In this document: piece by piece, positions 1 to 32,132 of the stretch
How positions within the stretch are numbered: the stretch's first letter is position 1
Layout of the letters: every line of letters starts with the position of its first letter
Assembly (NCBI GenBank): GCA_947649615.1
Contig: CANSSG010000014.1
Location: 1-63,472 of the forward strand
DNA from: an uncultured Clostridia bacterium
GTDB lineage: Bacteria > Bacillota > Clostridia > Oscillospirales > Oscillospiraceae
Length of the DNA stretch: 63,472 bases
Reading direction: 5' to 3'
The notes under the pieces: model-generated
What the model was told of the DNA's origin: nothing
Seen by the model: only the letters and a program-made list of their open reading frames with translations
Databases searched by the model: none
Translations under genes and position numbers: made by a program

Positions 1-498
1 TGACGGCGGTGCCGTGCTGGTCGTCGTGGAAGATGGGGATGTCGCACTTTTCCTTCAGCTTCCGCTCAATCTCAAAGCACCGGGGGGCGGCGATGTCCTC
101 CAGGTTGATGCCGCCGAAGCTGCCGGACATGAGATACACCGCGTTGACAAATTCGTCCACATCGTGGGTCTTGACGCAGAGAGGGAACGCGTCCACGCCG
201 CCGAAGGACTTGAACAGCACGCACTTGCCCTCCATTACCGGCATGCCCGCCTCCGGGCCGATGTCCCCAAGGCCAAGCACCGCACTGCCGTCGGTAATCA
301 CCGCGCAGAGGTTGTGGCGGCGGGTCAGCTCGTAGCTCTTGTTGATATCCTTCTGGATTTCCAGGCAGGGCTGGGCTACGCCGGGGGTGTAGGCCAGGGA
401 TAAGTCCTCCTTGCCCTCCACGGGGACGGTGGCAATAACTTCAATCTTGCCCTTCCACTGCTCATGAAGGCGCAGGGATTCTTTCGCGTAATCCATAA
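1..498 (-). CDS. Malic enzyme, N-terminal part (cut by window edge)
   Basis: The 166 visible residues are the N-terminal half of an NAD(P)-dependent malic enzyme, which oxidatively decarboxylates malate to pyruvate in the cytosol. Readable family motifs are [54 protein letters not shown] and FHDDQHGTA. Together these form the substrate and metal-binding core of the short bacterial malic enzymes. The Rossmann NAD(P) domain lies outside the window. The start is the ATG complement at 496-498, 13 bp after the stop of the LarA-family gene, so it is probably the last visible member of the minus-strand operon that begins with GAPDH. The coenzyme cannot be judged from this part. Confidence 0.93.
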
Positions 499-511
499 TG
501 AAATTTCTCCT

Positions 512-1765
512 TTATTTTACAATCCTGGGCAGCGTGGAGCCGCCGTAGGGCATGGCCAGCACGGTGGCGTCCGGCCCCAGCTTTTCAAAAGCCGCGTCCA
601 GCGCCGCCTGGGCGGTAGGCTGGGGCGTGAGGAAAATGGAGCGCACAAAATCAGGCGCCAGGTCGCTGACCAGGTACACGTCCGCCTTTTCCAACGTCAT
701 GGCGATGGCGGCGGCCTTGTGGCCTCCCAGCTGGAAATCCCGGCCAATGCGCTCGATCATGGCGGCGGGGGATTCGGACTGGGTCATCCACTCCTCAAAT
801 ACCCGCTCGCCTAAGCCTTCCTTACAGGAACCGATGAGGATAATCACACCGCCTGGGTTCACCGCGTGGCGGGCGTTGTCCAGGGCCTTCTGCGTCTGGT
901 AAAGGTTCAAATCCTTGGGTGCGCCGCCCTGGCTTACCAGGACGATGTCCGCCCCTTGGGGCAGTTCCTTGAGGTAGAGCCGGTCCAAGAATTTGCAGCC
1001 CTCCCGGTGGGCCTGAACCGGATGCCCCGCCACGGCGCGGATGATTTCCTTGTGCTCGCTGAGGACTACATTGACGATGAAGTCGATGCCGCAGAGACGG
1101 CCCGCTTCCTCAATGTCCATGCGCAGGGGGTTGGTATCCAGCGCCCCGGCGCAGGCTTCCGGGCGGACCATCATGGCGTGGTTGGACTGGATGGCGTCCC
1201 GGGTGGAGACGCCGGGCATAATGGCTTTCGCCCCGCCGGAGTAGCCCGCGAAATAGTGGTACTCAATGTTCCCCAGGCAGATGCGGCGGTCCGCCTCCGC
1301 TACGGCCCGGGTGATGTCTACCGGCGTCCCGGCGGCGGTGGTCCCTAAATGGACGCAGTCCGACGGGTCGCTGTCCATGCATTTGATCTCCCCCCAGGCC
1401 CGGTCTCCAGCCAGCTTTTTCTGTTCCTCCGGCGTATGCTTCCGGTGGCTTCCCAGGGCAAATACCAGGGTGACGTCCTCCGGCTTTACCCCCGCCCCCC
1501 ATAGCTCGTCCAGCAGGGCGGGCATAACTTTATAGGTGGGCATGGGGCGGGTGATGTCGCTGGTGATAACGGCAATTTTTTCACCGGGATGCACGACCTC
1601 CCCCAGGCGGGGCGTCCCAATGGGGTTTTCCAGGGCGCGGCGGACCTCCGCTTCGCCAGTGAGGTGTAACGCTACTTCGTTGGCGTGGAGCACCGACAGG
1701 AGGTTTTTTTCCGGGACTTCTGCCTCCTGGGTTCCTGCGCCAAATCCGAAACTCAACTTCATCAT
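512..1765 (-). CDS. larA: LarA-family nickel-pincer hydroxyacid racemase/epimerase (LarA1)
   Basis: A 417-residue member of the LarA (DUF2088) family. LarA enzymes racemise or epimerise 2-hydroxyacids using a nickel-pincer nucleotide bound to a lysine. Residues matching the Lactobacillus plantarum LarA site are visible: His107 (in GSHRKH), His170 (in EYHYFAGYSGGAK), Lys180 as the cofactor attachment lysine, and His196 (in SNH). The His-Lys-His spacings (10 and 16) equal those of H174, K184 and H200 in LarA. The family also contains racemases for malate, phenyllactate and hydroxyglutarate, and a gluconate epimerase, so lactate is not assured. A malic enzyme directly downstream makes malate a reasonable guess. 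The maturation genes larB and larC are at 57.3-59.3 kb. Confidence 0.9.
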   Translation of the reverse strand: MMKLSFGFGAGTQEAEVPEKNLLSVLHANEVALHLTGEAEVRRALENPIGTPRLGEVVHPGEKIAVITSDITRPMPTYKVMPALLDELWGAGVKPEDVTLVFALGSHRKHTPEEQKKLAGDRAWGEIKCMDSDPSDCVHLGTTAAGTPVDITRAVAEADRRICLGNIEYHYFAGYSGGAKAIMPGVSTRDAIQSNHAMMVRPEACAGALDTNPLRMDIEEAGRLCGIDFIVNVVLSEHKEIIRAVAGHPVQAHREGCKFLDRLYLKELPQGADIVLVSQGGAPKDLNLYQTQKALDNARHAVNPGGVIILIGSCKEGLGERVFEEWMTQSESPAAMIERIGRDFQLGGHKAAAIAMTLEKADVYLVSDLAPDFVRSIFLTPQPTAQAALDAAFEKLGPDATVLAMPYGGSTLPRIVK

Positions 1766-1780
1766 ATATTCTCCTAATAA

Positions 1781-1964: not shown

Positions 1965-2930
1965 CTAGGACTTTTTGGCGATGATGGATTTGGCCTGCTC
2001 TACGATGTGGGCGGCGGTCAGGCCGAAACGCTCCTGCAAATAGCCCTGGGGGCCGACTTCGCCAAATTCGTCCTCTACCGCTACATAGCCGGCGGGGACG
2101 GGACGCTTCTGGGCCAGGACTTCGCTGACGGCAGACCAGAGACCGCCGAATTTGTTGTGGTTCTCCGCCACCAGCACCGCGCCGCACTTCTTTGCCCAGG
2201 CCTCCACCGCTTCCACGTCTAAGGGCTTGATGGTGAACATGTCGATTACAGCCGCCTGGATGCCTTCGGCGGCAAGGGTCCCGGCGGCCTGCATGGCCTC
2301 GTGAACCATGATGCCGCAGGCGAAAATGGCGATGTCGCTCCCCTCGCGGAGGGTGACCGCCTTGCCGATGGGCAGGTCGCTGCCTTCCTCATAGACCTTG
2401 GCGTATTGCTTGCGGCCTACGCGGATGTATTTGACGCCGGGGCGGTTGACGCACTGGCCCAGTACGCTGATGAGCATGGTGGGGTCGGTGACGTCGATCA
2501 CCGTCGCGCCGGGGAGGGCGCGGTAAAGGGCTACATCCTCGAAGGGCATGTGGGTGCCGCCGTTCATGGTGGCCGTTACGCCGGGGTCTGTGCCGATGAT
2601 GGTGACGTCGTTTTTCGCGTAGCCCCCGCTGAGGAACGCCTGGTCATAGCACCGGCGGGAGGCGAAGGGTCCGAAGGTGTGGACGATGGGCTTGAACCCC
2701 GCCGAGGCAAGGCCGCAGGCTACGCCCACCATGTTCGCCTCCGCTATGCCGCAGTTGATGGCGCGGCCCGGGTTGGCCTTGGCCCACTTGGCGGTGCCAA
2801 TGCAGCTCATTAAATCCGCGTCTAGATAAATGACGTCCGCGTCCTTTTCCGCTAAGGCCGGGATCGTCTCGCCCAGTACGCTCTTGCACAGCCGGGGGTC
2901 CATTTCCCCTGTATAGACTACCTTCATCAT
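1965..2930 (-). CDS. Transketolase, C-terminal subunit (split type)
   Basis: A 321-residue protein matching the C-terminal half of transketolase: the Pyr domain (residues 5-170) and the transketolase C domain (about 190-310). Visible motifs are NCGIAEANMVGVACGLA, which carries the Glu that activates thiamine diphosphate, and FGPFASRRCYDQ. It would pair with the adjacent N-terminal subunit to move two-carbon ketol units between sugar phosphates. The upstream partner ends at 2934, 3 bp from this start, which indicates translational coupling and a 1:1 complex. Split transketolases are common in Clostridia. The substrate could be ordinary pentose phosphate or an analogue such as the sulfo-sugar used by sulfo-transketolases; sequence alone does not decide. 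Confidence 0.93.
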   Translation of the reverse strand: MMKVVYTGEMDPRLCKSVLGETIPALAEKDADVIYLDADLMSCIGTAKWAKANPGRAINCGIAEANMVGVACGLASAGFKPIVHTFGPFASRRCYDQAFLSGGYAKNDVTIIGTDPGVTATMNGGTHMPFEDVALYRALPGATVIDVTDPTMLISVLGQCVNRPGVKYIRVGRKQYAKVYEEGSDLPIGKAVTLREGSDIAIFACGIMVHEAMQAAGTLAAEGIQAAVIDMFTIKPLDVEAVEAWAKKCGAVLVAENHNKFGGLWSAVSEVLAQKRPVPAGYVAVEDEFGEVGPQGYLQERFGLTAAHIVEQAKSIIAKKS

Positions 2931-2933
2931 CTC

Positions 2934-3779
2934 TCAGCCCTCCAACGCCGCCAGCTCGCTCTTAAGCTGGGCAGTCCATCTCTCAAATTGTTCGTCGCTG
3001 ACCGGCAGGCTGTGGTTCATGGCCGTATCCGCTACCTCCTGGATGCCCGCGCCCTTTACCGTGTCCAAAATGACGGCGTGGGGCTTCCCGGCGGCTTGGC
3101 GGGTGCGCTCCAGGGCGTCCGCTACGGCTTCCACATCGTTGCCATTGACCTTTACTGTGTCAAAGCCGAAGGCTTCCAGCTTGGCCACATAGTCGCCCAT
3201 GGGATAGACGTCCTCCGTCCAGCCGTCCAGCTGCCGCTTGTTCCAGTCCAGAAGAACCACCAGGTTATCCAGCTTTTTGGCGGACGCGAAGGCTAACGCC
3301 TCCCAGACCTGGCCCTCGTTGCTCTCGCCGTCGCCTACTATCAGGAATACGCGGGCATCACGGCCGCGCAGCTTCTCGCCTAAAGCCATGCCGCAGGCGA
3401 GGGACGTACCCTGGCCCAGGGAACCGGTGGTCATGTCTACGCCGGGGGTCTTGTTCCGGTCGCAATGGCTGGGGAGACGGGTGCCGGGACGGTTCAGGGT
3501 TTTCAGCTCCTCATAGGGGAAGAAGCCCTTTACCGCCAGGGTGCCGTATACCGCCGGGCCGGCGTGGCCCTTGGAGCAGACCAGCTTGTCGCGCTCCGGC
3601 CACTTGGGGTCCGCCGCGTTGTATTTCATTTCCTTGCCGTACAACACCGCCAGTACGTCGGCGATGCTCATGGCTCCGCCCAGGTGGCCGGAACCCAGGG
3701 AGTGGATCGCTTCCAGCGCCGCCATCCGGATGCGGACGGCAAGCGCCTGCAATTCCTTTTTCTTTGCCGCTTCCATCAT
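2934..3779 (-). CDS. Transketolase, N-terminal (thiamine diphosphate-binding) subunit
   Basis: The N-terminal PP domain of a split transketolase, 281 residues from the chosen start. Motifs are LGSGHLGGAMSIADVLAVLYG, the GDGESNEGQVWEA thiamine-diphosphate/metal motif, and DWNKRQLDGWTEDV. The start at 3779 is preferred over an in-frame ATG at 3803 because GAGAGGTG lies just upstream of the Met-Met pair; the longer version would run back to the end of the PGK gene. It sits between PGK and the C-terminal subunit, with 11 bp to PGK, in a tight minus-strand operon. Confidence 0.93.
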   Translation of the reverse strand: MMEAAKKKELQALAVRIRMAALEAIHSLGSGHLGGAMSIADVLAVLYGKEMKYNAADPKWPERDKLVCSKGHAGPAVYGTLAVKGFFPYEELKTLNRPGTRLPSHCDRNKTPGVDMTTGSLGQGTSLACGMALGEKLRGRDARVFLIVGDGESNEGQVWEALAFASAKKLDNLVVLLDWNKRQLDGWTEDVYPMGDYVAKLEAFGFDTVKVNGNDVEAVADALERTRQAAGKPHAVILDTVKGAGIQEVADTAMNHSLPVSDEQFERWTAQLKSELAALEG

Positions 3780-3790
3780 GCTTTCACCTC

Positions 3791-5044
3791 TCAATTTTCG
3801 CACAGCCCCGCGCCGTGGCGGAGGGCCTTGACCACCGGCAGCTCCTCGCCGGTCAGGAACCGGATCAGCGCGCCGCCTCCGGTGCAGATATAGCCCATCT
3901 TGTCCGTTAAGCCGTATTTTTCCGTGGCCGTGATGCTGTCGCCGCCGCCCAGGACGGTGTGGGCCTCCGTGTCCGCCAAGGCCTGCCAGACGGCTTTTGT
4001 CCCGGCTTCGCTGGGGGCTTGCTCGAATACGCCCATGGGTCCGTTGACAAAGACGGTTTTGGCATTCAAAATGGCTTCCCGGTAGGTTTTCGCCGTATTG
4101 CCGCCAATGTCTACGGCGGCAATGTCCGCCGGGATTTCACCGATGGCGGCTTCGCGGCGCGCGCCGTTTTCTACCCATGCCAGGTCCTCCGGCAGGGTTA
4201 TTTTTTTGCCGTATTGGGCATACAGATCCTTGGCCTTTTCCAGATAATCGCCGTAGTTGGCGTTTATGATAAAGTCCAGGCTGCCCTGGCCGGTTTCTTT
4301 GCCCAGCGCTGCCAGGAAGATGTTGGACACCAGGCCGCCGGTGAGAATCTGGTCCGCTACGCCCCGCTCCAGAACTGTTTTCATCATCAGGAAGGCGTCG
4401 GAAATCTTCGCCCCGCCCAGGACGAACACGCAGGGGCGGGCAGGGGCCTCCATAACCTGGGAGACGGTGCAGAACTCCTTTTCAAACAGCCGCCCCATGT
4501 AGGAGGGGAGAACCTGCTCAAAGCCGCACAGGCTGGGCTGGTCCCGGTGGGCGGCGGCGAAGGCGTCGCATACATACAAGTCCGCCAGGGGCGCCAGCTT
4601 TTCTACCAGAAGGGTTTTGGCCTGCTGCCCATGGGTCAGGCGGAGCTTCATTTCAAAAAGGGTCTGCTCCTCCGCTACAAAGCGGACATTGTCCAAAAGC
4701 AGAATCCCGCCGTTTTGGAGCTTCTGGATTTCCTCCCGGGCGGCGGGTCCGCAGACGTCGTCAATCCATTTCACTTCCCGCCCCAGCAGCTCGCCGAGAA
4801 CCTTGGCGTGGGGACGGGTGGTATAGTAGTTTTTGTATTCAATGTCACTGCCCTGGTGGGCCAGAAGAACCACCTTCGCGCCCTTGTCCGCAAGCTCCCT
4901 GACGGTGGGGACGCAGGCGGTGAGACGGTTGATGCTCTTTAAAGTGCCTTTTTCCCGGTCTACGGGCTGGTTGATGTCTACCCGGCAGAGGACGGTTTTG
5001 CCCTCTACCTGGGCTTCATCCAGGGTTTTGATGCCAAAACGCAT
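3791..5044 (-). CDS. pgk: Phosphoglycerate kinase, archaeal-like
   Basis: A 417-residue phosphoglycerate kinase, which interconverts 1,3-bisphosphoglycerate plus ADP with 3-phosphoglycerate plus ATP. Visible landmarks are CRVDINQPVD with the substrate-binding Asp and Asn near the N-terminus, LLAHQGS (usual bacterial form HxGRP), LLDNVRF, FVLGGAKISDA, FVNGPMGVFE and GGGDSITATEKYG. The N-terminal form (DINQPVD, HQGS) and the length look closer to archaeal PGKs than to the roughly 395-residue bacterial type; this was judged by eye. The start at 5044 follows a clear ribosome-binding site, and upstream in-frame Met codons fall inside the GAPDH gene. It follows the type II GAPDH by 38 bp, giving a matched pair for the glyceraldehyde-phosphate to phosphoglycerate step. 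Confidence 0.92.
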   Translation of the reverse strand: MRFGIKTLDEAQVEGKTVLCRVDINQPVDREKGTLKSINRLTACVPTVRELADKGAKVVLLAHQGSDIEYKNYYTTRPHAKVLGELLGREVKWIDDVCGPAAREEIQKLQNGGILLLDNVRFVAEEQTLFEMKLRLTHGQQAKTLLVEKLAPLADLYVCDAFAAAHRDQPSLCGFEQVLPSYMGRLFEKEFCTVSQVMEAPARPCVFVLGGAKISDAFLMMKTVLERGVADQILTGGLVSNIFLAALGKETGQGSLDFIINANYGDYLEKAKDLYAQYGKKITLPEDLAWVENGARREAAIGEIPADIAAVDIGGNTAKTYREAILNAKTVFVNGPMGVFEQAPSEAGTKAVWQALADTEAHTVLGGGDSITATEKYGLTDKMGYICTGGGALIRFLTGEELPVVKALRHGAGLCEN

Positions 5045-5082: not shown

Positions 5083-6135
5083 TTACTTGAAGCGGCCGAT
5101 GCGCAGGTACTTGTTGGTCTCGGCGGTACCCGCCTCGCGGGTGGGCTGCATCTCCATGGCCGCGCGGATGGCGTCCATGGTCTCGGGGATGGTGACGCTC
5201 TCCTGGGGGATGTTGATGGCGTACATGATGTCGTCGCCGCTCTCTACAATGCTGTCCTCCCACAGGCCGATTTCGTACATGTCGCCCCGGCGGTTGCCCA
5301 GGTCCCGGGCGTACTTGAAGAGGCTGGCGTTGCCCAGGAAGCCCTCGTCAATGGTCACCGTGCGGATGCGGGGATGGGCGCGGAAGGCTTCCAACGCCTG
5401 CTCCCGGGTGATCTTCTTCCCGTCCTTGCCGGACGCCAGGACGGTAATAATATGCCCATGGGTTACCGGCGTATGTACCAGGATGCCCGTGGCCTCGACG
5501 TGGGGCATGATGGTCATCAGATCCACCGCCTGATGGCTGGGGGCCTTGTCGATTTGCAGGGCGTTGGTCAGGCCCCGGTGATAGTCGCCCGGGTCCGCTA
5601 CCCGGCGGATGATGGTGATGGCGACCTTCTCCACGCCTACCGCGCGGTCCAGGCAGTCTACCGTGCGGATCAGGCCGGTGGTGTTGCAGCTTGTCAGCTT
5701 CAGGTACTTCTGGCCCAGGCCCTTTTCATAGTTTGCGTAGCCGTGGAAAAATACGTCGGCCACGGAGTTCTTCTCGCCGCCCTGGAAAATGGCCTTTACC
5801 CCCATCTTCTCATACAGCTCCTTGTTCTTCGCCCCTACGCCGCCGGGGGAAGAGTCCAGCATGATGTCTACCTTGCCGCACAAGTCCTCGAAGGAACCGG
5901 CGACGGGAATGTCCAGCGCGTCAAACTTCGCCTTGTCCGCGCCGCCTACCAGATACAGATTGTACTTGACATTGTTGGCGCCAACCATGCCGTTCTCCCG
6001 CAAGGCCCGGATTGCCAGGGTGGGCGCAAGGTCCGCAATGCCGACCAGCTCCATGTCCCCCTGCATCGCTACGCCGTCCGCCAAACGCTGGCCGATGGTG
6101 CCGTAGCCCGCTACGCCAACTCTTACCTTCGCCAT
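5083..6135 (-). CDS. gap: Type II (archaeal-like) glyceraldehyde-3-phosphate dehydrogenase
   Basis: A 350-residue GAPDH of the archaeal (type II) family, not the usual bacterial GapA. It shows the Rossmann motif GVAGYGTIGQRLAD at residues 7-20, a catalytic cysteine in TSCNTTGL (Cys150), and PHVEATGILVHTPVTHGH. Bacterial GapA would read NGFGRIGR and SCTTNC instead. The reaction is phosphorylating oxidation of glyceraldehyde-3-phosphate, or an analogue, with NAD(P). The start at 6135 has GGAGG upstream. It is the first gene of the minus-strand operon and lies behind a consensus promoter. A type II GAPDH in a bacterium points to lateral transfer or to specialisation on a related aldehyde phosphate. 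Confidence 0.92.
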   Translation of the reverse strand: MAKVRVGVAGYGTIGQRLADGVAMQGDMELVGIADLAPTLAIRALRENGMVGANNVKYNLYLVGGADKAKFDALDIPVAGSFEDLCGKVDIMLDSSPGGVGAKNKELYEKMGVKAIFQGGEKNSVADVFFHGYANYEKGLGQKYLKLTSCNTTGLIRTVDCLDRAVGVEKVAITIIRRVADPGDYHRGLTNALQIDKAPSHQAVDLMTIMPHVEATGILVHTPVTHGHIITVLASGKDGKKITREQALEAFRAHPRIRTVTIDEGFLGNASLFKYARDLGNRRGDMYEIGLWEDSIVESGDDIMYAINIPQESVTIPETMDAIRAAMEMQPTREAGTAETNKYLRIGRFK

Positions 6136-6218
6136 AATTTTTGTCCTCCAATTCAGAATTTTGCCGTCTGGAGAGAGTCCGTGTCCACAGGCTCCAACGC
6201 AAACGTTTTTACATGGTG

Positions 6219-6247
6219 ATTGTAGCATTTTTTCGCCCGCCTGTCAA
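6219..6247 (-). promoter_or_regulatory. Sigma-A-type promoter of the GAPDH-PGK-transketolase-LarA operon
   Basis: On the minus strand, TTGACA (complement of 6242-6247), a 17-bp spacer and TACAAT (complement of 6219-6224). It lies about 85 bp upstream of the GAPDH start and back to back with the deoR-like promoter. Confidence 0.8.
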
Positions 6248-6264: not shown

Positions 6265-6300
6265 TTGGTAATTTTATTTGTTTATACAATAACTTACCAA
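6265..6300. promoter_or_regulatory. Candidate operator between divergent promoters
   Basis: TTGGTAA at 6265-6271 and TTACCAA at 6294-6300 are perfect inverted 7-mers, 22 bp apart. They sit in AT-rich DNA exactly between the minus-strand operon promoter and the deoR-like promoter. This is the expected place for the DeoR-family repressor to bind and control both directions, which is inference from position and symmetry. Confidence 0.5.
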
Positions 6301-6379: not shown

Positions 6380-7138
6380 ATGCGGGATGGACGCATGAAG
6401 CAGATCGCGGCGCTGGTGGCCAGGCGGGAAACCGTCTCCATGGAGGAGCTGCGCCGCACCTTCGGCGTGTCGATGAACACCATCCGCGCCGATGTGGCCA
6501 AGCTGGCGGAGAGCGGCGCGGTGGAAAAGGTCTACGGCGGCGTCAGGGCCGTCCGGAAGCAGGAGGTCCCCCTTTTTACCCACCGTATGGAACTGCATGC
6601 CCAGGAGAAAAAACGCATCGCCCGCTATGCCCAAAAGCTGGTGCGTGACGGGGACATCCTCTACATCGACGCGGGGACGACGACCATGCACCTCATCGAC
6701 TGCCTGGACCCGGCGAAGCATGTGACCGTGGTGACCGGGAACCTCTACGTGGTGGGCAGGGCCTACGCTAAGCCCAATGTGGATTTGATCGTCCTGCCGG
6801 GCGGCATGAACCGGCGGACCAATTCCGTGGCCGACGGGGGGACTTTGGAGTTTTTGGCCCGCTACCGGTGCGGGAAGGCGTTTATGGGCGCATCCGGCGT
6901 GTCCCCCGACGGAAGGCTCAACGTCTCCACTTATATGGAATATGAACTGAAAAAACTGGCTGTGGAACAGAGCCAGCAGGCCTTCCTCCTGCTGGACGGC
7001 AGCAAGTTCGGCGGGAACAGCCTGCTTTCCTACGGTGCGCTGGCGGATATGGCGGAGGTGGTTACCGACGCTTACTGCCCGCAGGAGGCGCGGGAGCAGT
7101 GCGCCCGGGCGGGCGTTCCATTGACCGTAATCGAATAG
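6380..7138 (+). CDS. DeoR-family transcriptional regulator
   Basis: A 252-residue DeoR-type repressor. The N-terminal HTH (residues about 5-57) reads VSMEELRRTFGVSMNTIRADVAKLAESGAVEKVYGGV, with the family's R-D signature. The C-terminal sugar-phosphate sensor begins near residue 75 and contains DAGTTTMHL and GGMNRRTNS. DeoR-family regulators normally release DNA when they bind a phosphorylated sugar intermediate. The gene diverges from the GAPDH-PGK-transketolase-LarA1 operon across 244 bp holding both promoters and an inverted repeat, so it is the likely regulator of that operon and perhaps also of the aldolase-PFK-TPI operon at 24.6 kb. Confidence 0.92.
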   Translation: MRDGRMKQIAALVARRETVSMEELRRTFGVSMNTIRADVAKLAESGAVEKVYGGVRAVRKQEVPLFTHRMELHAQEKKRIARYAQKLVRDGDILYIDAGTTTMHLIDCLDPAKHVTVVTGNLYVVGRAYAKPNVDLIVLPGGMNRRTNSVADGGTLEFLARYRCGKAFMGASGVSPDGRLNVSTYMEYELKKLAVEQSQQAFLLLDGSKFGGNSLLSYGALADMAEVVTDAYCPQEAREQCARAGVPLTVIE

Positions 7139-8046: not shown

Positions 8047-8075
8047 TTGACAGGGAGGGGCGGGGCATATAAAAT
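8047..8075 (+). promoter_or_regulatory. pfkA promoter
   Basis: TTGACA at 8047-8052, a 17-bp spacer and TAAAAT at 8070-8075, about 60 bp upstream of the pfkA start. It gives pfkA its own strong promoter, independent of the deoR-PHP unit. Confidence 0.85.
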
Positions 8076-8136
8076 AGTGGAGGGTCTGCCTGCGCGTGGG
8101 GACAGGCCGCCTACTACATCTTTCGGGAGGAAGCAT

Positions 8137-24682: not shown

Positions 24683-25840
24683 ATGCCATTGGTTCCTATG
24701 AGAGCTATCCTGGATGCTACCGAGAAGTACAACTACGCCCAGGGCGCGTTCAATGTCAACGCCGTCTGCCAGGCCAAGGCCGTCATCGAGGTCCATGAGA
24801 TGTTCCGTTCCGCCGCGATCTTGCAGGGGGCGGATTTGGCCAACGCTTTCATGGGCGGGCGCACCGATTTCGCCAACGGCACCCTGGAGGATAAGAAAAA
24901 AGGCGCGCTGAATATTGCCAACGCCGTCAAAAAGTATGCCGAGACCAGCCCGGTTCCCGTGGCGCTGCATTTGGACCACGGGAAGAATCTGGATTCCTGC
25001 ATCGCCGCTATTGCGGGGGGATATACCTCCGTCATGATCGACGGTTCCTCCCTGCCCTTTGACCAGAATGTGGAGCTGACCCGTGAGGTGGTCAAATACG
25101 CCCATGAGCGGGGCGTCACCGTGGAGGGGGAACTGGGCGTCCTGGCCGGGGTGGAAGACCACGTCTTCGCCGCTAATTCGACCTACACCAACCCTATGGA
25201 CGCGGTGAAGTTCTTCCGCCAGACCGGCGTGGACGCGCTGGCTATCAGCTACGGCACCAAGCATGGGGCCAACAAGGGGAAGGATACCATCATCCGCAAG
25301 GAAATTGCTATTGCGACCAAGGAGTGCATGATGCACGAGGGGATCGAGGGGACACTTGTCAGCCACGGGTCTTCTACCGTACCCCAGTACATCGTCTCTG
25401 AGATCAATGCCTTGGGCGGCGATATTCATGATGCTTACGGCATTAAGAAGGAGCAGCTTAAGGAGGTCTCCAAGCTGGGCATCCGCAAGATCAATGTGGA
25501 TACCGACATCCGGCTGGCGGTGACCCGCAACCTGCGGGAGCTGTTCAAAAATGAGCCAGAACTGCGGGAAAAGACCTCCATCAGCGCGATTTACCAATTG
25601 CTGCTGGCAAATCCTTCCGCCTTCGACCCCAGGGTGTTCCTGCCGCCTGTTATGGATACCGTTATGTATGGCAATGTACCTGATGAGGACATCGGCTGCA
25701 TCGTGGACTGTATTGAGCGGGGCGTGAAGGAAGTGGTCGGAACCCTCATTGTGGAGTTCGACAGCGTGGGGAAGGCTCCGCTGATTGAAGCCGTCAGCCT
25801 GGACGAGATGGCGGAGCGGTACAGAAAGAAGGGCATCTGA
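24683..25840 (+). CDS. Class II fructose-bisphosphate aldolase family protein
   Basis: A 385-residue metal-dependent aldolase. Zinc and substrate motifs are VALHLDHGKNLDSC, TVEGELGVLAGVEDHV, ISYGTKHGANKG, LVSHGSSTVP and IRKINVDTDIR. It is longer than the usual form of about 285-310 residues, mainly through a C-terminal extension. Family members cleave fructose-1,6-bisphosphate, tagatose-1,6-bisphosphate or sedoheptulose-1,7-bisphosphate to DHAP plus an aldehyde. The start at 24683 follows GGAGG; the ATG at 24668 overlaps that site. It heads an operon with PPi-type PFK and TPI, which would make and process its substrate and product. Confidence 0.9.
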   Translation: MPLVPMRAILDATEKYNYAQGAFNVNAVCQAKAVIEVHEMFRSAAILQGADLANAFMGGRTDFANGTLEDKKKGALNIANAVKKYAETSPVPVALHLDHGKNLDSCIAAIAGGYTSVMIDGSSLPFDQNVELTREVVKYAHERGVTVEGELGVLAGVEDHVFAANSTYTNPMDAVKFFRQTGVDALAISYGTKHGANKGKDTIIRKEIAIATKECMMHEGIEGTLVSHGSSTVPQYIVSEINALGGDIHDAYGIKKEQLKEVSKLGIRKINVDTDIRLAVTRNLRELFKNEPELREKTSISAIYQLLLANPSAFDPRVFLPPVMDTVMYGNVPDEDIGCIVDCIERGVKEVVGTLIVEFDSVGKAPLIEAVSLDEMAERYRKKGI

Positions 25841-27003
25841 TGGGTAAAAAAATTCTCGTCGCCCACGGCGGCGGGCCTACAGCGGTGATCAACTGCTCTT
25901 TGCAGGGGGTGGTGGAGGCCGCGAGGGCTTCTGGGAAGGTGGATAAAATCTATGCCGCCCGGTTCGGCGCAGAGGGGATCTTGAAGGGCGACCTGCTGGA
26001 TTTGACCAACGTCCCTGCGGAGACGATTGCCAAACTGCGCCATACGCCCGCTTCCGCCATCGGGTCCTGCCGGCGGAAGCTCTCGGAGGCGGATTATCCC
26101 ACCGTGCTGGAGACGCTGAAACGGTTTGAGATTGACTGCTTCTTCTACAACGGCGGCAACGATTCTATGGATACCTGCCATAAGGTCAACGAACTGGCGA
26201 AAAAGGAAGGGCTGGATTTGCGGGTTATCGGAATCCCAAAGACGATGGACAATGATTTGGATATTACCGACCACTGCCCCGGGTTTGGCTCCGCCGCGCG
26301 GTACGCGGCCCTCAGCGCCGCAGAACTGGCGCTGGACGCGTCGGGACTGCCCATCCATGTGGTGGTTCTGGAACTGATGGGCCGCAACGCCGGGTGGGTT
26401 ACCGCCGCCGCCGCCATGGCCGCTAGGCTTACGGACTGCGAGGTGCTGACATATCTGCCGGAAACGCCGGTGGACGAGGATAAGATGCTGGCCGGCATTG
26501 AGCGGCATTATGCGAAAGGCAGGGGCCTGCTGGTGGCGGTCAGCGAGGGGGTTCGCGGGCTGGATGGCAAGCCGCTGGCGGATACGGGCATGGTGGACGG
26601 CTTCGGCCATACGATCCCCGGAGGCGCCGCGCAGCATGTGGCGGATCAAATCATCCAAAAGCTGGGGATTAAGTCCCGGGCGGAAAAGCCGGGGCTGCTG
26701 GGACGGGCCAGCATTCCCTATGTCTCCATCCCGGACCGGGAGGAGGCGTACGCGGTGGGGAAATTTGCGCTGGAAGCCGCGCTGCGGGATGAGAGCGGTT
26801 ATATGGCGGCAATTGCCGCAGAGCGGTCCCCCGTGTACCGGAGCAGCCTGTTTTTGGCTCCCCTGGCGGATGTGGCGAACGTAGAGAAAAAATTCCCGGT
26901 GGAGTGGATCGTGGACGGCAACCAAATTGCAGAACCGTTTTTCCAGTACGCCCTGCCTCTGATGGGCGGGGATTTCCCGGAATACGCCCTGCTGAGAAAG
27001 TGA
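25840..27003 (+). CDS. Pyrophosphate-type phosphofructokinase
   Basis: A 387-residue PFK of the PPi-dependent group. Two diagnostic spots are GGNDSMDT (residues 105-112), with Asp in place of the ATP-type Gly, and IPKTMDND (132-139), with Lys in place of the ATP-type Ala/Gly. Further motifs are GFGSAARYA and VVVLELMGRNAGWVTAA. It reversibly phosphorylates fructose-6-phosphate; some clostridial enzymes also phosphorylate sedoheptulose-7-phosphate. Its ATG overlaps the aldolase stop as TGATG, so translation is coupled. The ATP-type paralogue is at 8.1 kb. Assignment of the phosphate donor is inferred from residues, not measured. Confidence 0.9.
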   Translation: MGKKILVAHGGGPTAVINCSLQGVVEAARASGKVDKIYAARFGAEGILKGDLLDLTNVPAETIAKLRHTPASAIGSCRRKLSEADYPTVLETLKRFEIDCFFYNGGNDSMDTCHKVNELAKKEGLDLRVIGIPKTMDNDLDITDHCPGFGSAARYAALSAAELALDASGLPIHVVVLELMGRNAGWVTAAAAMAARLTDCEVLTYLPETPVDEDKMLAGIERHYAKGRGLLVAVSEGVRGLDGKPLADTGMVDGFGHTIPGGAAQHVADQIIQKLGIKSRAEKPGLLGRASIPYVSIPDREEAYAVGKFALEAALRDESGYMAAIAAERSPVYRSSLFLAPLADVANVEKKFPVEWIVDGNQIAEPFFQYALPLMGGDFPEYALLRK

Positions 27004-27009: not shown

Positions 27010-27846
27010 ATGAAACATATTTACTTGAACCTCAAACGCTTTGACGTGCCTGTGGAATTGGGCGGCGTGAACCGGCTGGCCCCTGTGAAGGACTGGGGGG
27101 CGGCGGTGGTGGGCGGCACCCAGGACGCGCTGAAAAAATACGACCCCGCTAAGGTGGAGTTCGTCCAGTACTTACCGGAAGCCCACCTTCTGGGCGCGGC
27201 TGCCGCGAAATCAGAGGGCAGCCCGGTGCAGCTTGGCAGCCAGGGGGTCTACCGGATGAATACCGCCGTGGGCGGGAATTTTGGGGCCTTTACAACCAAC
27301 CGGCCCGCTTCTATCGTGAAGGCTATGGGCTGCTCCTCGGCCTTGATCGGACACTGTGAGGAGAGGAACGATAAGAAGGGGATTCTGGCGGAAGCCGGGG
27401 CGGCGGATATGTCCGCCGTGAACCGTTTGCTCAATCAGGAGATCAAATGCGCCCAGGACGCAGGGCTGGCGGTTCTGTACTGCATCGGCGAGACCAGCGA
27501 GGAACAGCCGGAATGGGAGAAGGTGCTGGGCGAGCAGCTGGATGTGGGGCTGGACGGCGTGGATAAAAGCCGGGTGGTCATCGGCTATGAGCCGGTCTGG
27601 TCCATTGGACCCGGCAAGACGCCGGCGGGGAAGGACTACATTACGAAGATCGCCCGGTTTGTCAAGGAACGCACCGGCGGGATGGACGTGGTCTACGGCG
27701 GCGGACTGAAGGCTGATAACGCGGCGATGCTGGCGTCTATTGACGAGATTGACGGCGGGCTGATCGCGCTGACGCGCTTCCAGGGGGAGATCGGGTTCTA
27801 TCCCGATGAGTATCTGGAAATCATCCGGTTGTATTTAGGAGAATAA
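27010..27846 (+). CDS. tpiA: Triosephosphate isomerase homologue
   Basis: A 278-residue TIM-barrel protein. The catalytic set is kept: Asn7 and Lys9 (LNLKRF in place of the usual NWK), His115 in LIGHCEERN (usual GHSERR) and Glu194 in YEPVWSIGPG, with phosphate-binding YGGGLKADNAA. It is longer than common TPIs (about 250) and diverged around the first loops. It may interconvert DHAP and glyceraldehyde-3-phosphate, or an analogue, as the erythrulose-phosphate isomerases of this superfamily do. It starts 6 bp after PFK and ends directly against the LarA2 start. Confidence 0.85.
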   Translation: MKHIYLNLKRFDVPVELGGVNRLAPVKDWGAAVVGGTQDALKKYDPAKVEFVQYLPEAHLLGAAAAKSEGSPVQLGSQGVYRMNTAVGGNFGAFTTNRPASIVKAMGCSSALIGHCEERNDKKGILAEAGAADMSAVNRLLNQEIKCAQDAGLAVLYCIGETSEEQPEWEKVLGEQLDVGLDGVDKSRVVIGYEPVWSIGPGKTPAGKDYITKIARFVKERTGGMDVVYGGGLKADNAAMLASIDEIDGGLIALTRFQGEIGFYPDEYLEIIRLYLGE

Positions 27847-29334
27847 ATGATGAAGCTTGATTTTGAATACGGCCACGGCCTGATGAGCGCCGTGCTGCCG
27901 GACAGTACCGACGTGTTTATCCCGGGCGAGACCGTGGCGGACCCGCCCTGCCTGCCCCAGGATTGGGACAGCCTTTACAGCGCGACGCTGGACAGCATCC
28001 GCCATCCCACCGGCATGAAGCCCCTGAAGGAACTGGCCGGACCCGGCAAGAGCGTGGTTTTCGTCATCCCTGACATCGTTAAGGGCGGCTGTCAGGCAAC
28101 CAGCCACCGGAAGGTGGCCATCCGGGCCTGCCTGGATGAGCTGTATGCCGCGGGCGTGGAGAAGAAAGACATTTTGATGATGATATCCAACGGCCTGCAC
28201 CCCAGGGCTACCGTGCCGGAGATGAAGCAGATTCTAGGCGAAGAGCTGTTCGGCGAGTTCTATTATTCCGGCCAGCTTACCAGCCATGACAGCGAGGACC
28301 AGGCCCATATGGTGGACTTGGGCGTTACGCGGCGGGGGGACCCCGTGCTGATGAACAAGTATGTCTTTGACTGCGACATCCCCATCCTGATCGGACATAC
28401 CCAGGGGAATCCCTACGGCGGGTACTCCGGCGGCTATAAGCACTGCGCTACCGGCATCACCCATTGGCGCTCCATCGCCAGCCACCATGTACCCCAGGTG
28501 ATGCACCGGGCCGATTTTACCCCCGTGTCCGGGAAGAACCTGATGCGGACCAAGTTCGATGAGATCGGCATGTGGATGGAGGAGAAGATGGGACACCCCT
28601 TCTTCTGCTGCGACGCGGTGCTGGATACCTACTCCCGGCAGATCGCGGTTTTCTCCGGCTGCGCGGCGGAGATGATGCCCAAGAGCTGGGAGGTGGCCGA
28701 CAAGCGGACCTATGTGCCTTTTGCGGAGAAGAAATATGACGTGATGGTCTTTGGGATGCCCCAGGCCTTTCACTACGGCGACGGCATGGGAACCAACCCC
28801 ATCCAGATGATGCAGGCCCTCTCCGCGCAGGTCATCCGCCACAAGCGGGTGATGAAGGATAACTGCGTGATTATCTGTTCCTCTGCCTGCAACGGCTACT
28901 TCCACGATGAACGCTGGCCCTACCTGCGGGAGCTGTATGAACTGTTTCAGCACGATTACATGAATATCCTGCCGGATATGAACCGGTATGGCGAGTATTT
29001 TGCCACCAATGAGGAGTATATTCGGAAGTACCGCTTTGCCAACGCGTTTCATCCCTTCCACGGCTTTTCCATGATGAGTTGCGCCCACATCGCGGAGATG
29101 AACACATCCGCCATCTACATCGTGGGCGCCCAGGAGCCGGGCATTGCCCGGGGCATGGGGCTGAAGACCCGGGCCACCTTCGAGGAGGCCTTGGCCGATG
29201 CTATGAAGAAGTACGTAGGGCCAAACCCCAGCATCCTGGCCCTGCCCAAGACCTTCAAGGTGGGCGCGGTACACCTGTGCATGAAGGACGAGCCTTACGA
29301 CGGCACCAGCGGACACGGCGGCTGCGGCTGCTGA
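27847..29334 (+). CDS. Divergent LarA-family (DUF2088) protein (LarA2)
   Basis: A 495-residue LarA-family protein, about 80 residues longer than LarA1. It has GLHPRAT (His118, matching LarA His108), GYSGGYK (Lys198, matching the pincer-binding Lys184) and His214, 16 residues later (matching the nickel ligand His200). At the place of the second catalytic histidine (His174) it has Asn188; the nearest His is 4 residues further upstream (His184). The C-terminus ends GHGGCGC, a possible metal-binding tail. It may racemise, epimerise or perform other hydride chemistry on a hydroxyacid or sugar acid. Its ATG directly follows the TPI stop, and a transporter follows, so its substrate is probably what the transporter brings in or a product of it. 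Confidence 0.8.
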   Translation: MMKLDFEYGHGLMSAVLPDSTDVFIPGETVADPPCLPQDWDSLYSATLDSIRHPTGMKPLKELAGPGKSVVFVIPDIVKGGCQATSHRKVAIRACLDELYAAGVEKKDILMMISNGLHPRATVPEMKQILGEELFGEFYYSGQLTSHDSEDQAHMVDLGVTRRGDPVLMNKYVFDCDIPILIGHTQGNPYGGYSGGYKHCATGITHWRSIASHHVPQVMHRADFTPVSGKNLMRTKFDEIGMWMEEKMGHPFFCCDAVLDTYSRQIAVFSGCAAEMMPKSWEVADKRTYVPFAEKKYDVMVFGMPQAFHYGDGMGTNPIQMMQALSAQVIRHKRVMKDNCVIICSSACNGYFHDERWPYLRELYELFQHDYMNILPDMNRYGEYFATNEEYIRKYRFANAFHPFHGFSMMSCAHIAEMNTSAIYIVGAQEPGIARGMGLKTRATFEEALADAMKKYVGPNPSILALPKTFKVGAVHLCMKDEPYDGTSGHGGCGC

Positions 29335-29378
29335 GCGGCAGAAATCGGAGAAGAAATGAGAGTAAAGGATGGTGTCCA

Positions 29379-30185
29379 ATGAGCAGAAAACACAGGAGAG
29401 ATTTGACCCATGCGGAGAAAATGGCCGTGGCGTCCAACTGGATGTGGCTGGCGGTTTCCCTGGCGGTGGCGCTGCTGGTGTGGTTCGGCCTTTCCAAGGG
29501 GCAGAAAACGGGCCGCAGCTTTCCGTTTATCTATGCCGTGGCCGACGGCATGAAGACCATGATCGAGCGGGACGCGCTGTGGAGCGACTTCGCCAGCAGC
29601 ATGATCTCTGTGGCCATGGGCTTCGGCCTGGGCTTCGTCACTGCGCTGCCAATGGCGTTCCTTATGGCGTGGTACGCCCCGGTACGCCGGATCATTGAGC
29701 CGTGGATCAACTTTATCCGCAACATCCCCGCCCTGGCCTACGCGCCCCTGATTGTCATCATGCTGGGCGTGGGCCGCGCCCCCTCGGTGGTGCTGATTTG
29801 GATTTGTACGTTTATGACCATGTGCATTACCATTTTCCACGGCATCCGGAATATCGACAATACGCTGGTCAAGGCCGCCCGGGTCCTGGGGGCTAACGAC
29901 ATGGATATCTTTTTCCGGATCACCCTGCCCGCTACGGTGCCGTTTATTCTGACCGCCGTGCGGCTGGGGCTGAGCGCGGGCCTGACGACCCTGCTGGCGG
30001 CGGAGTCTACCGGCGCACAGGCGGGCCTGGGGATGCGGATCCGTACGCTCCAGACGACCTTCGAGACCAACGCGATGCTGGGGTACATCATTCTGATCGG
30101 AATCATCGGCACACTGCTCAACACCCTTGTGGACTTTATCGAAAGGAGGCTGACGTCATGGCAGGAGAAACGGGAAGAAGCGTGA
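29379..30185 (+). CDS. ABC permease, nitrate/sulfonate/taurine type
   Basis: A 268-residue permease with about six membrane segments and the cytoplasmic EAA loop LGANDMDIFFRITLPATVPFILTAVRLGLS, characteristic of the SsuC/TauC/NrtB class. It would carry a small anionic or amine compound across the membrane. AAAGGAT precedes the ATG at 29379; longer in-frame starts lie within the LarA2 gene. Its 3' end overlaps the ATPase gene by 28 bp. Confidence 0.9.
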   Translation: MSRKHRRDLTHAEKMAVASNWMWLAVSLAVALLVWFGLSKGQKTGRSFPFIYAVADGMKTMIERDALWSDFASSMISVAMGFGLGFVTALPMAFLMAWYAPVRRIIEPWINFIRNIPALAYAPLIVIMLGVGRAPSVVLIWICTFMTMCITIFHGIRNIDNTLVKAARVLGANDMDIFFRITLPATVPFILTAVRLGLSAGLTTLLAAESTGAQAGLGMRIRTLQTTFETNAMLGYIILIGIIGTLLNTLVDFIERRLTSWQEKREEA

Positions 30186-30970
30186 CCCCGGGCGAAAATG
30201 TGAAGATACAGATCAAGGACGTCAAAAAGGAATACCATGGCGACCATGGGACGACCGTAGCCTTGAACGGGGTCAACCTGGATATCATGGAAAACGAGTT
30301 CATCTGCGTGGTCGGCCCCTCCGGCTGCGGGAAGTCTACGCTGCTGAATGTGCTGGCCGGTCTCCATGAGGCCAGCAGCGGCGATTGCTATCTGGACGGC
30401 GAGCGCATCGTGGGTACGGATGTAAAGCGTGGCGTCGTTTTCCAGCAGTACGCCCTGTTCCCCTGGCAGACGGTGATCCAGAACGTGATGTTCGGGCCGC
30501 AGATGAGACGCCTGCCTAAGGCGGAGTGTGAAGCCATCGCCCGGAAATACATTAAAATGGTGGGGCTTGAGGATTTTGAAAATTCCTATCCGAAGGAGCT
30601 GTCCGGCGGTATGAAGCAGCGGGTGGCCATTGCCCGCGCCTACGCCAACAACCCGGAAGTCCTGCTGATGGACGAACCCTTCGGCGCGTTGGACGCCCAG
30701 ACCCGCGCCCAGCTTCAGACGGAGCTTCTCAAGACCTGGGAGGAGGAGCGGAAGACCTGCTTCTTCATCACCCATGACGTGGATGAGGCGGTGCTTTTGG
30801 CCCAGCGGGTGGTGATTATGTCCGCACGGCCGGGCCGGATCAAGCGGATCGTTGACATCGACATCCCCTACCCCCGGGACCAAGGCACCAAGAGCCAGCC
30901 GCGTTTTATGGAATTAAAGGCCGAGATTTGGAACGAAGTGTACCAGGAGTACTTGGAGGTACGGAAGTAG
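30158..30970 (+). CDS. ABC transporter ATPase, nitrate/sulfonate/taurine type
   Basis: A 270-residue ATPase. Walker A is GPSGCGKST, the Q-loop FQQYALFPW, the signature LSGGMKQRVAIARA, Walker B LLMDEPFGALD and the switch His in ITHDVDEA. FQQYALFPW and the C-terminal extension are typical of SsuB/TauB. It energises the overlapping permease. Confidence 0.94.
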   Translation: MAGETGRSVTPGENVKIQIKDVKKEYHGDHGTTVALNGVNLDIMENEFICVVGPSGCGKSTLLNVLAGLHEASSGDCYLDGERIVGTDVKRGVVFQQYALFPWQTVIQNVMFGPQMRRLPKAECEAIARKYIKMVGLEDFENSYPKELSGGMKQRVAIARAYANNPEVLLMDEPFGALDAQTRAQLQTELLKTWEEERKTCFFITHDVDEAVLLAQRVVIMSARPGRIKRIVDIDIPYPRDQGTKSQPRFMELKAEIWNEVYQEYLEVRK

Positions 30971-31055
30971 GCCGCAGCAATTTTTGGTTCAGGAGGGCGG
31001 TTCCGCTCTTTTGATACAGCGTACAAATTATTTGGAAATTATGGAGGAAAATGAA

Positions 31056-32132
31056 ATGAAGAAACTGACAGCCCTGTTGCTGGCGCTCGTCATGACCCTG
31101 GCCCTGGCGGCCTGCGGCGGCGATAACAAAGCCGGCGGCAATCCCCCCGCCGATCCCCCGAAGACCGACGCTCCTACTGAGCAGGAGAAGAAGGACGAAG
31201 AGCCTGCCGAGCCTGCCGGTCCCGAACCCATTACCCTGCGCATCGGCTATATGCCCAACTACGCTTCCCTGTGGGGCGTACTGTCCGCTATTGAGCAGGG
31301 CTGCTTCGCCGAGGAGGGCATTACCATTGAACTGACGGAGTTCCCTGACGGACCCTCTGAGATCGCCGCTATGGAAGGCGGCTCCATCGACCTGGCCTAC
31401 ATCGGCAAGGGCGCGCACCGCCTTTGCATCCTGGGCAGCGCCGTGATCTTTGCGCCCAGCTCCGTCCATACCGTTGATAAGGTCGTCGTTATGCCGGAGA
31501 GCGGCATTCAGTCTGTTGAAGACCTGGCCGGGAAGACCATTGCCTTTAACTCCGGGTCTTCCTCCGAATCCACCTTTAACAACGCGCTTGCCGTGGCCGG
31601 CATCACCCGGGACGATGTGACGGCTATGGATTTGGGCATCGACAATATCGTAGCGGCCGCCGTGTCCGGCTCCATTGACGCTGCTGTGTGCTGGAATCCC
31701 TATTCCGGCCAGATTCTCCAGCAGGTGGAAGGCTCCTATGAGATCGAGTTTGCCGACGGCTCCACGAACATCTCCAGTTGGATTTGCCTGCCTGGGTACG
31801 CCGAGGAGAACCATGACGTTCTGGTCCGGTTCAGCCGCGCGCTCTACAAGGGCATGGATTGGGGTTCCCAGACCGGCAACTACGAAGCGGTGGCCCAGTA
31901 CTGTGCGACCCAGACCAAGACTGGCCTGGACGCCAACCTGCTTCAGGTGGGTGACGCCCATTGGTTCAACATTGCCGATTTGAAGGCCGGCGTGGCGGAT
32001 GGCACCCTTAAGGGCTATTATGAGGGAATGCAGAACGATATGGTGAAGACCGAGAACATTAAGCCCGAGGAAGCCAAGGAAGATGTGGGCGAGTTCGTTC
32101 TGTTCGACGTGATTGAGGAAGCTCTGAAGTAA
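31056..32132 (+). CDS. Substrate-binding lipoprotein, SsuA/TauA type
   Basis: A 358-residue lipoprotein with signal sequence and lipobox ALAAC (Cys20), followed by a Pro/Asp/Glu-rich tether (residues 25-60). The binding fold has LRIGYMPNYASLWGVLSAIEQGCFAEEG, EIAAMEGGSIDLAYIGKGAH and LAGKTIAFNSGSSSE, the layout of sulfonate, taurine, nitrate and thiamine-precursor binding proteins. The start at 31056 has GGAGGAAA upstream. Last gene of the operon, closed by a terminator at 32168-32205. The ligand is not readable. Confidence 0.9.
   Translation: MKKLTALLLALVMTLALAACGGDNKAGGNPPADPPKTDAPTEQEKKDEEPAEPAGPEPITLRIGYMPNYASLWGVLSAIEQGCFAEEGITIELTEFPDGPSEIAAMEGGSIDLAYIGKGAHRLCILGSAVIFAPSSVHTVDKVVVMPESGIQSVEDLAGKTIAFNSGSSSESTFNNALAVAGITRDDVTAMDLGIDNIVAAAVSGSIDAAVCWNPYSGQILQQVEGSYEIEFADGSTNISSWICLPGYAEENHDVLVRFSRALYKGMDWGSQTGNYEAVAQYCATQTKTGLDANLLQVGDAHWFNIADLKAGVADGTLKGYYEGMQNDMVKTENIKPEEAKEDVGEFVLFDVIEEALK

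Follow-up and report, generated by a model that had tools for sequence, protein, structure and literature searches.

Two glycolysis-like operons with LarA-type nickel-pincer enzyme genes in an uncultured Clostridia bacterium as candidates for separate catabolic modules

We analysed a stretch of 63,472 nucleotides from an uncultured Clostridia bacterium (the window, which is all of contig C14 of the source genome), in which two operons combine genes of glycolysis-type enzymes with one gene each for a nickel-pincer enzyme of the LarA family. Operon A, on the minus strand, encodes an archaeal-type glyceraldehyde-3-phosphate dehydrogenase (GAPDH-II), a phosphoglycerate-kinase-like protein (PGK2), a split transketolase (TktA and TktB), LarA1 and a malic enzyme, the gene of which is cut by the contig end. 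Operon B, on the plus strand, encodes a class II aldolase (FBA), a pyrophosphate-type phosphofructokinase-like kinase (PFP), a triosephosphate-isomerase-like protein (TPI2), LarA2 and an ATP-binding cassette (ABC) importer, and the same-strand run continues past position 32132 with genes for a DUF4838 protein, NagB-like and NagA-like proteins, a ROK protein and a TauE-family protein (Table 1). The gene content and placement of both operons agree with the original prediction, including the aldolase start at 24683. That prediction joined A and B into a single inducible route; our analysis points instead to two independent catabolic modules, with A a transketolase branch of inositol breakdown, a reading that we regard as plausible though just short of probable. 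In both modules glycolytic enzymes appear to have been re-purposed for substrates in which another acid group replaces the phosphate, with one nickel-pincer enzyme in each.

Two sets of neighbourhoods were compared. For LarA2, 90 loci were taken: 10 came from eight other genomes of the class, and to these were added the 80 best out of at least 563 confirmed ones in a named genome collection. Of the 90, 69 are 12 kb or longer, and their neighbour genes were scored by tblastn with the proteins of the window, the malic enzyme query being the 165-aa fragment only. For GAPDH-II, all 12 matches outside the source genome were taken, in stretches of 8.9-19 kb. Flanks around both genes reached at most about 10 kb, and presence counts across the class refer to 291 genomes. 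Open reading frames (ORFs) in relatives were called by a custom procedure with an amino-acid composition filter, so that small or odd genes may have been overlooked, as in L069, where LarA2 was found by tblastn and none among the called ORFs.

The two gene sets hardly overlap. Among the 90 LarA2 loci, TPI2 was found in 75, PFP in 58, FBA in 54, SsuB in 52, SsuC in 46, SsuA, NagA and NagB-like genes in 34 each, TauE in 32, ROK in 21, DUF4838 in 15, LarB in two and LarC in one, and neither GAPDH-II, nor PGK2, nor the malic enzyme fragment in any; queries with iol genes gave three weak matches only (IolD in L050, 27% identity; IolG in L123 and L043, 26-32%). The 12 GAPDH-II loci contain PGK2 (11), LarA1 (9), TktA and TktB (7 each), malic enzyme (5) and DeoR (2), and none of them contains TPI2, PFP, LarA2, NagA, NagB-like, SsuA, SsuC, TauE or DUF4838. 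As the same neighbours recur in relatives, the gene sets of the operons are not due to chance. Since the flanks are limited to about 10 kb and the gap between A and B is about 18 kb here, co-occurrence across whole genomes is also relevant, and it is weak. LarA2 orthologues (48-78% identity) occur in eight genomes besides the source, which makes 9/291 for the class, and the 11 genomes drawn from the same family or order have none; GAPDH-II occurs in 11/291, and only the source genome and G179 have both (p 0.04 with the source genome counted, 0.25 without it). G179, with a contamination estimate of 11%, carries three LarA2 clusters of differing make-up (L044, L045 and L046) and a GAPDH-II/PGK/LarA1 locus (L141).

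Some matches weigh against so clean a separation: TktA and TktB each occur in 8/90 LarA2 loci, a LarA1-type gene lies in one LarA2 locus (L100), an FBA-family match in one of the GAPDH-II loci (L141), and generic SsuB-type ATPase matches in three (L134, L138 and L141). The transketolase halves and the LarA1-type gene, together with the shared contig and the presence of LarA2 and GAPDH-II in both the source genome and G179, might favour a single pathway under DeoR that converts a hexose phosphate or heptulose phosphate into phosphoglycerate, as first proposed. Against such a pathway stand the complete lack of cross-matches of the hallmark genes in 90 and 12 loci, the weak co-occurrence in genomes and the arrangement of the regulatory elements, and we consider it extremely unlikely. 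The TTGGTAA inverted pair (6265/6294) was found only between DeoR and GAPDH-II, with nine sites in the window against 3.9 expected, and DeoR may regulate operon A. The predicted shared operator at 24.6 kb is not there: none lies just upstream of operon B, the nearest sites (22568 and 25591) being inside genes, and the B stretch has a NagC-like ROK gene of its own.

The idea that these are extra copies of glycolytic genes was borne out for PGK, TPI and class II aldolase: better-scoring PGK and TPI genes lie together on contig C3, and a second class II aldolase is also encoded on C3. Another NagA is encoded on C13 and a NagB on C32. A step besides that of LarA is duplicated in the window, given a second phosphofructokinase (PFK) with an ATP-type GGDG motif at 8047-9144, downstream of DeoR and a PHP-domain protein gene.

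The neighbours of GAPDH-II in relatives connect operon A with inositol. In the 12 loci, iolD was found in six, iolE and iolG in four each, and iolB-like genes in five by similarity or seven by clustering; L140 has the order GAPDH-II, PGK, TktA, TktB, LarA1, malic enzyme, IolB-like, IolD, and in L135 IolD, IolE and IolG score above curated cut-offs. The source genome carries iolD (905 bits, cut-off 715) and an IolB-family gene, oriented as in L140, on a contig of 3143 bases (C68), and operon A may continue past the contig end into iolB-iolD. These genes correspond to classical myo-inositol (iol) catabolism, which the relatives share through iolB-like, iolD, iolE and iolG genes up to 2-deoxy-5-keto-D-gluconate (DKG); a DeoR-family regulator is a further likeness, IolR of Bacillus subtilis being of the DeoR type. 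Module A differs from the classical pathway in that an IolJ-type class II aldolase gave no match in any of the six iolD-bearing loci within the stretches fetched, and no iolC above the cut-off was found in the source genome (best 160.6 bits, cut-off 300). Neither of the two class II aldolases of the source genome is on the iolD contig. Whereas the classical pathway leads to dihydroxyacetone phosphate (DHAP) and malonate semialdehyde, we propose a transketolase-malate branch instead.

On this proposal, IolB would lead to DKG. Read from its ketol end, DKG has what we take to be a xylulose-like D-threo configuration at C3/C4, so that a transketolase could remove the C2 unit and leave D-malate semialdehyde; TktA/TktB would transfer the ketol end to glyceraldehyde-3-phosphate, with xylulose-5-phosphate and D-malate semialdehyde as products. 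Because D-malate semialdehyde is D-glyceraldehyde-3-phosphate with a carboxylate replacing the phosphate ester, enzymes of the GAPDH and PGK types would yield D-malate and ATP from it, GAPDH-II by oxidising and phosphorylating it to D-malyl-phosphate and PGK2 by converting this to D-malate with formation of ATP. Since the leftover aldehyde is D-configured and malic enzyme needs L-malate, a malate racemase would be required; LarA1 would turn D-malate into L-malate, from which malic enzyme would form pyruvate, CO2 and NAD(P)H. The chemistry of these steps is derived from established reactions, sequence and gene order. A mutant transketolase has been described to move the ketol group of 5-keto-gluconate, the 2-hydroxy analogue of DKG, leaving tartaric semialdehyde (PMC12016104). 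The earlier idea of a sugar-acid-like substrate that needs a racemase proved a good guess for operon A.

The enzymes of operon A can be compared with this scheme residue by residue, using the roles and numbers of phosphate-site residues (in TPI, NagA, NagB, PfkA, FBA and PGK) that we take to hold for the canonical enzymes. LarA1 is, by its equivalog score, probably a malate racemase of the LarAH6 family, and both catalytic histidines, the lysine and the nickel-binding histidine are present in the alignment. GAPDH-II has the motif (S/N)HQA-D in 13/13 rows, where three archaeal enzymes of solved structure have SHHGPD or SHHAKD, and the Arg65 position of PGK2 is occupied by D in nine, S in two and G in one of 12 rows. 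For LarAH6, malate racemase activity has been demonstrated biochemically and an association with malic enzyme described (PMC7583248). Operon A resembles this LarAH6/Mar2 system in that LarA1 scores above the equivalog cut-off and adjoins malic enzyme; it differs by GAPDH-II, PGK, the split transketolase, the iol company and the proposed source of D-malate, none of which appeared in the passages of PMC7583248 at hand or in the matches listed. Likewise, among the matches listed in the open-licence literature, no title or abstract start named a route of inositol breakdown through transketolase and malate, or a role of LarA with sulfo compounds, and the terms malate semialdehyde and malate racemase were absent from the matches listed for two such queries.

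Several observations weigh against the inositol branch. PGK2 keeps the other four residues of the basic patch (Arg39, His62, Arg122 and Arg170), and a Pyrococcus PGK, normal by name, has Lys at the place of Arg65, so that this arginine is not strictly invariant. The window and C68 are separate contigs, and a join of iolB-iolD to operon A is conjectural. The IolB-like protein of L135 scores 95.6 bits against a cut-off of 205, and the best iolE match in the source genome, which is 95.8% complete, reaches 116.7 bits against a cut-off of 290, which disfavours a complete classical iol set. Moreover, of the 12 GAPDH-II loci, six are without iolD, three without LarA1, five without transketolase and seven without malic enzyme, so that the proposal has to allow for further feeding routes or for loci cut short; some iolD-less loci have tripartite ATP-independent periplasmic (TRAP) transporter or sugar-kinase neighbours, which suggests that other substrates may feed the same branch.

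These gaps leave room for two other explanations of operon A. One is an operon for D-malate or a tartrate-type acid, in which LarA1 and malic enzyme would serve growth on D-malate and GAPDH, PGK and transketolase would be ordinary helpers. It would fit the demonstrated malate racemase activity of LarAH6 with its published malic enzyme link (PMC7583248) and the six loci without iolD; yet malate use has no obvious need for PGK or transketolase, the motifs of GAPDH-II and PGK2 are changed at the expected substrate sites and iol neighbours recur, and we regard it as rather unlikely. The other, which we hold to be unlikely, takes GAPDH-II for the housekeeping GAPDH of the organism. A type I GAPDH motif was not seen in C3:100000-118000 around the PGK-TPI pair, and the genome was not searched by family for another GAPDH; the second PGK and TPI elsewhere, the conserved neighbourhood with LarA1 and the occurrence in only 11/291 genomes of the class speak against a housekeeping role.

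The LarA protein of operon B belongs to another branch of the family. LarA2 has Asn in place of the catalytic His174 in 90/91 rows, the sole His row being the LarA1-like paralogue in L100, whereas H118, K198 (the lysine for the nickel-pincer nucleotide, NPN) and H214 are kept in 91/91. A PD-VKGG motif with Lys for Arg75 is present in 89/92 rows, the misses being two LarA1-type rows and the broken L047 piece. In profile comparison LarA2 matches 9q3j (LarA_Bw) at 2.8e-262 and 9q2u (LarA_Sp) at 1.3e-257. For this single-histidine subfamily, structures are published and no substrate is known; with lactate, LarA_Sp showed no racemisation, and it carried an unidentified ligand of 316.5 Da (PMC12611868). 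LarA2 shares the signature residues of LarA_Bw and LarA_Sp, and glycolysis-type neighbours are noted there too; what is different here is that 90 neighbourhoods, changes at phosphate sites and sulfo-type transporters narrow the substrate. Where LarA1 has a stretch with Gln and Lys, LarA2 has FHY; this suggests a substrate of the hydroxy-carbonyl type instead of a hydroxy acid, and a hydride whose departure and return take place on the same face. Such a shuttling of hydride over a single face of a hydroxy-carbonyl compound is the weakest point of module B, and we consider it distinctly doubtful. In a tree of LarA2 the neighbourhood labels cluster only in patches, and the source row is labelled as transketolase type because the whole contig was used.

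The partner enzymes of LarA2 appear to keep their catalytic residues and to have lost some of the residues that bind phosphate. In TPI2, Ser211 is replaced by Gly (YGGG) in 72/73 rows and a GGL-ALT motif replaces the GG motif after strand 8 in 72/73, while the housekeeping TPI of the genome has YGGS and GG; the catalytic His is present in 73/73 and Glu in 72/73, and N7-x-K9 is invariant in 40 rows. The terminal MAFFT columns of TPI2 are apparently misaligned, because the row of the housekeeping TPI has a long N-terminal extension; the columns K13, G232 and G233 were therefore discarded and motif and strand positions taken instead. TPI2 is modelled with confidence as a TIM barrel (predicted local distance difference test, pLDDT, 95.2), the 50 PDB matches listed are all TPI, and the Pfam TIM family scores 111.6 bits (cut-off 20.1), while the NCBIfam TPI models all stay below cut-off. 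The NagB-like protein lacks two residues of the phosphate loop in 31/31 rows, the phosphate-binding Arg of NagA is His in 32/34, with Arg kept in the C13 copy, Ser50 of FBA is Ala in 47/56, and Arg162 of PFP is His in 52 of the 54 readable rows among 58; of the two rows that differ, one is the ATP-type PFK of the window.

Taken with the transporters, these changes suggest that module B would import, by Ssu/Tau-type transport, an amino sugar with an acid other than phosphate at C6, most likely a sulfate or sulfonate. NagA-like deacetylation and NagB-like deamination would be followed by phosphorylation by PFP; the aldolase would then yield DHAP and a C3 acid aldehyde, on which TPI2 and LarA2 would act next, and the TauE-type exporter would remove the sulfur product. 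Operon B showed no sugar kinase other than PFP and the ROK protein, whose best score is for the regulator NagC, so that C6 may arrive already bearing its acid. In a described sulfoglycolysis cluster, TauE is the probable exporter of 3-sulfopropionate (PMC11489063). A bifidobacterial sulfoglycosidase releases 6-sulfo-N-acetylglucosamine from mucin (PMC10245121), which makes N-acetylglucosamine-6-sulfate a realistic substrate. After removal of the main TauE cluster, TauE was the commonest Pfam family (5/91) among neighbour proteins picked from 156 candidates, and it occurs in 0/12 module-A loci. The nearest solved chains of SsuA are, in order, nitrate transport, aliphatic sulfonates-binding and pyrimidine-binding proteins. 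The layout recalls the Embden-Meyerhof-Parnas (sulfo-EMP) and transketolase (sulfo-TK) types of sulfoglycolysis, in which an isomerase or deaminase and a kinase are followed by a class II aldolase or a split transketolase, and to which putative sulfonate-type transport and a putative TauE-type exporter would correspond here; it differs by the amino-sugar front end and the TPI2-LarA2 pair (PMC12890257, PMC11659671). A sulfated or sulfonated amino sugar is accordingly a possible substrate, though less than probable.

Other details run counter to a sulfur substrate or to a single one. The Ssu-like importer genes do not reach curated cut-offs, TauE was assigned through a broad Pfam family and has no NCBIfam match here, FBA keeps Lys182 in 52/56 rows and other residues of the C6 site, PFP keeps two Arg of the C6 site in the readable rows, the ROK protein could be a kinase, and TPI2 is missing from 15/90 LarA2 loci, some of them short. 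Two loci (L083 and L089) carry an FGGY kinase and an aminotransferase, and AraD/RPE-type genes occur in the transketolase variants, so that the substrate may differ between LarA2 loci.

An amino sugar with a carboxylate at C6 (a hexosaminuronate) would also provide an acid other than phosphate, the aldolase yielding tartronate semialdehyde that TPI2 and LarA2 would process via hydroxypyruvate. In line with this, the reductase in TPI2-less LarA2 loci scores 159.9 bits as 2-hydroxy-3-oxopropionate reductase versus 146.3 as sulfolactaldehyde reductase, both below cut-off. This alternative offers no explanation for the importer of the Ssu/Tau type or for the repeated occurrence of TauE-family proteins, and it seems unlikely to us. 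Plain N-acetylglucosamine glycolysis with paralogous enzymes would account for the names NagA, NagB-like, PFK, aldolase and TPI, with ROK possibly as the kinase, but it is very unlikely given that no phosphotransferase system was seen in the stretch, that phosphate-site residues are changed, that NagA and NagB are encoded elsewhere as well and that LarA2 would have no explanation. The c28 dehydrogenase was considered as an NAD-dependent sulfoquinovosidase and dropped, as the PDB matches listed are general Gfo/Idh/MocA proteins and lend no support.

LarA2 loci vary in make-up. Isolates that carry a LarA2 cluster include Flavonifractor sp. An10 and An82 and Pseudoflavonifractor sp. An184 (loci L116, L080 and L075). 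In five loci (L098, L099, L107, L110 and L122) LarA2 occurs without TPI2; all five encode a beta-hydroxyacid dehydrogenase and a LacI regulator, four also a type I phosphodiesterase, and LarA2 is presumably put to another use there. In L046, L100, L102 and L103 the LarA2-TPI2 pair lies beside a split transketolase, a zinc alcohol dehydrogenase and a doubled Ssu-type importer, without aldolase or PFP; ribulose-phosphate-3-epimerase, AraD-type and short-chain dehydrogenase/reductase genes were found in three of these four. The FGGY kinase and a class III aminotransferase lie beside NagA at L083:3345-6355 and L089:3321-6262, the former scanned directly and the latter assigned by the same gene clusters.

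The coordinates are collected in Table 1. As predicted, larB and larC are in the window; with larE on C3, the organism is probably able to make the nickel-pincer cofactor. Both clear LarA genes of the genome lie in the window, and a third match stays below the cut-off. Directly upstream of operon B (21100-24480) lie genes for a Fur-type regulator, rubrerythrin and the beta subunit of acetyl-CoA synthase/carbon monoxide dehydrogenase, a nickel enzyme. Further downstream, a protein of 2323 aa with S-layer homology domains is encoded at 40752-47723, overlapped by a long ORF in antisense (40674-46931) that is probably a shadow of high GC content, and a phage-type integrase gene (49650-50828) is flanked by a YqeC-like gene and ABC transporter genes.

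Table 1. Features of operon A, operon B and the cofactor genes in the window (related loci: the 12 GAPDH-II loci)
Feature	Position	Strand	Remarks
Malic enzyme, N-terminal 165 aa	2..496	-	NCBIfam PRK12861 6e-54, fragment; counterpart in 5/12 related loci
LarA1, LarAH6-type malate racemase (predicted)	512..1765	-	NCBIfam NF052593 569.9 bits, cut-off 500; 9/12 related loci
TktB, C-terminal half of split transketolase	1965..2930	-	NCBIfam transketolase models, C-terminal part; 7/12 related loci
TktA, N-terminal half of split transketolase	2934..3803	-	NCBIfam transketolase models, N-terminal part; 7/12 related loci
PGK2, phosphoglycerate-kinase-like; phosphate-patch Arg65 is Ser	3791..5038	-	
GAPDH-II, archaeal-type, motifs changed	5083..6228	-	NCBIfam PRK04207 389.7 bits, cut-off 185
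TTGGTAA inverted pair, putative operator	6265..6300		between GAPDH-II and DeoR
DeoR-family regulator	6380..7138	+	
Class II aldolase (FBA)	24683..25840	+	PF01116 238 bits; GGAGG just upstream of start
Pyrophosphate-type phosphofructokinase-like kinase (PFP), Arg162 position is His	25840..27003	+	NCBIfam PRK14072 428.9 bits, cut-off 273
TPI2, TIM-fold isomerase, TPI catalytic residues kept, phosphate site changed	27010..27846	+	
LarA2, single-histidine LarA (His174 to Asn)	27847..29334	+	
SsuC/TauC-type ABC permease, start approximate	29337..30185	+	below curated cut-offs
SsuB/TauB-type ABC ATPase	30158..30970	+	below curated cut-offs
SsuA-like binding lipoprotein	30984..32132	+	
DUF4838 (GH163-like) protein, no signal peptide by eye	32161..34068	+	
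NagB-like protein, without two residues of canonical phosphate loop	34052..34903	+	
NagA-like deacetylase, phosphate-binding Arg position is His	34900..36060	+	TIGR00221 304.3 bits, cut-off 225.65
NagC-like ROK protein, probably regulator	36092..37315	+	below curated cut-off
TauE/SafE-family membrane protein, true start probably after 37315	37150..38112	+	PF01925 91 bits, cut-off 32.6
larB	57277..58092	+	AIRC domain PF00731, adjoins larC
larC	58089..59303	+	PF01969 434 bits

The functions assigned to both modules are predictions from protein similarity and gene order, in which LarA1 and LarA2 appear as members of known families in unexplained roles and the pathways proposed for them would be new variations on known pathway types. 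Taken jointly, gut Clostridia would have a transketolase-malate branch of inositol breakdown, with D-malate semialdehyde, D-malyl-phosphate and ATP formation by the GAPDH/PGK pair, and a single-histidine LarA that serves the glycolysis-like breakdown of amino sugars bearing sulfate or sulfonate; this combination we put forward only tentatively. In it, one histidine would suffice in LarA2, because the hydride moves within one molecule and on one face, and no stereocentre is inverted.

The in vivo roles of LarA-type racemases, including malate racemase, have been named an important remaining question (PMC7583248). If our reading is true, the nickel-pincer malate racemase would gain a role in vivo, for which module A provides a step-by-step and stereochemically forced prediction, while module B would narrow the substrate of the single-histidine LarA to acid sugars without the usual phosphate and name its partner enzymes. 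Inositol, and possibly sulfated amino sugars of the mucin type, would then be fermented in Clostridia by routes that are annotated as duplicate glycolysis.

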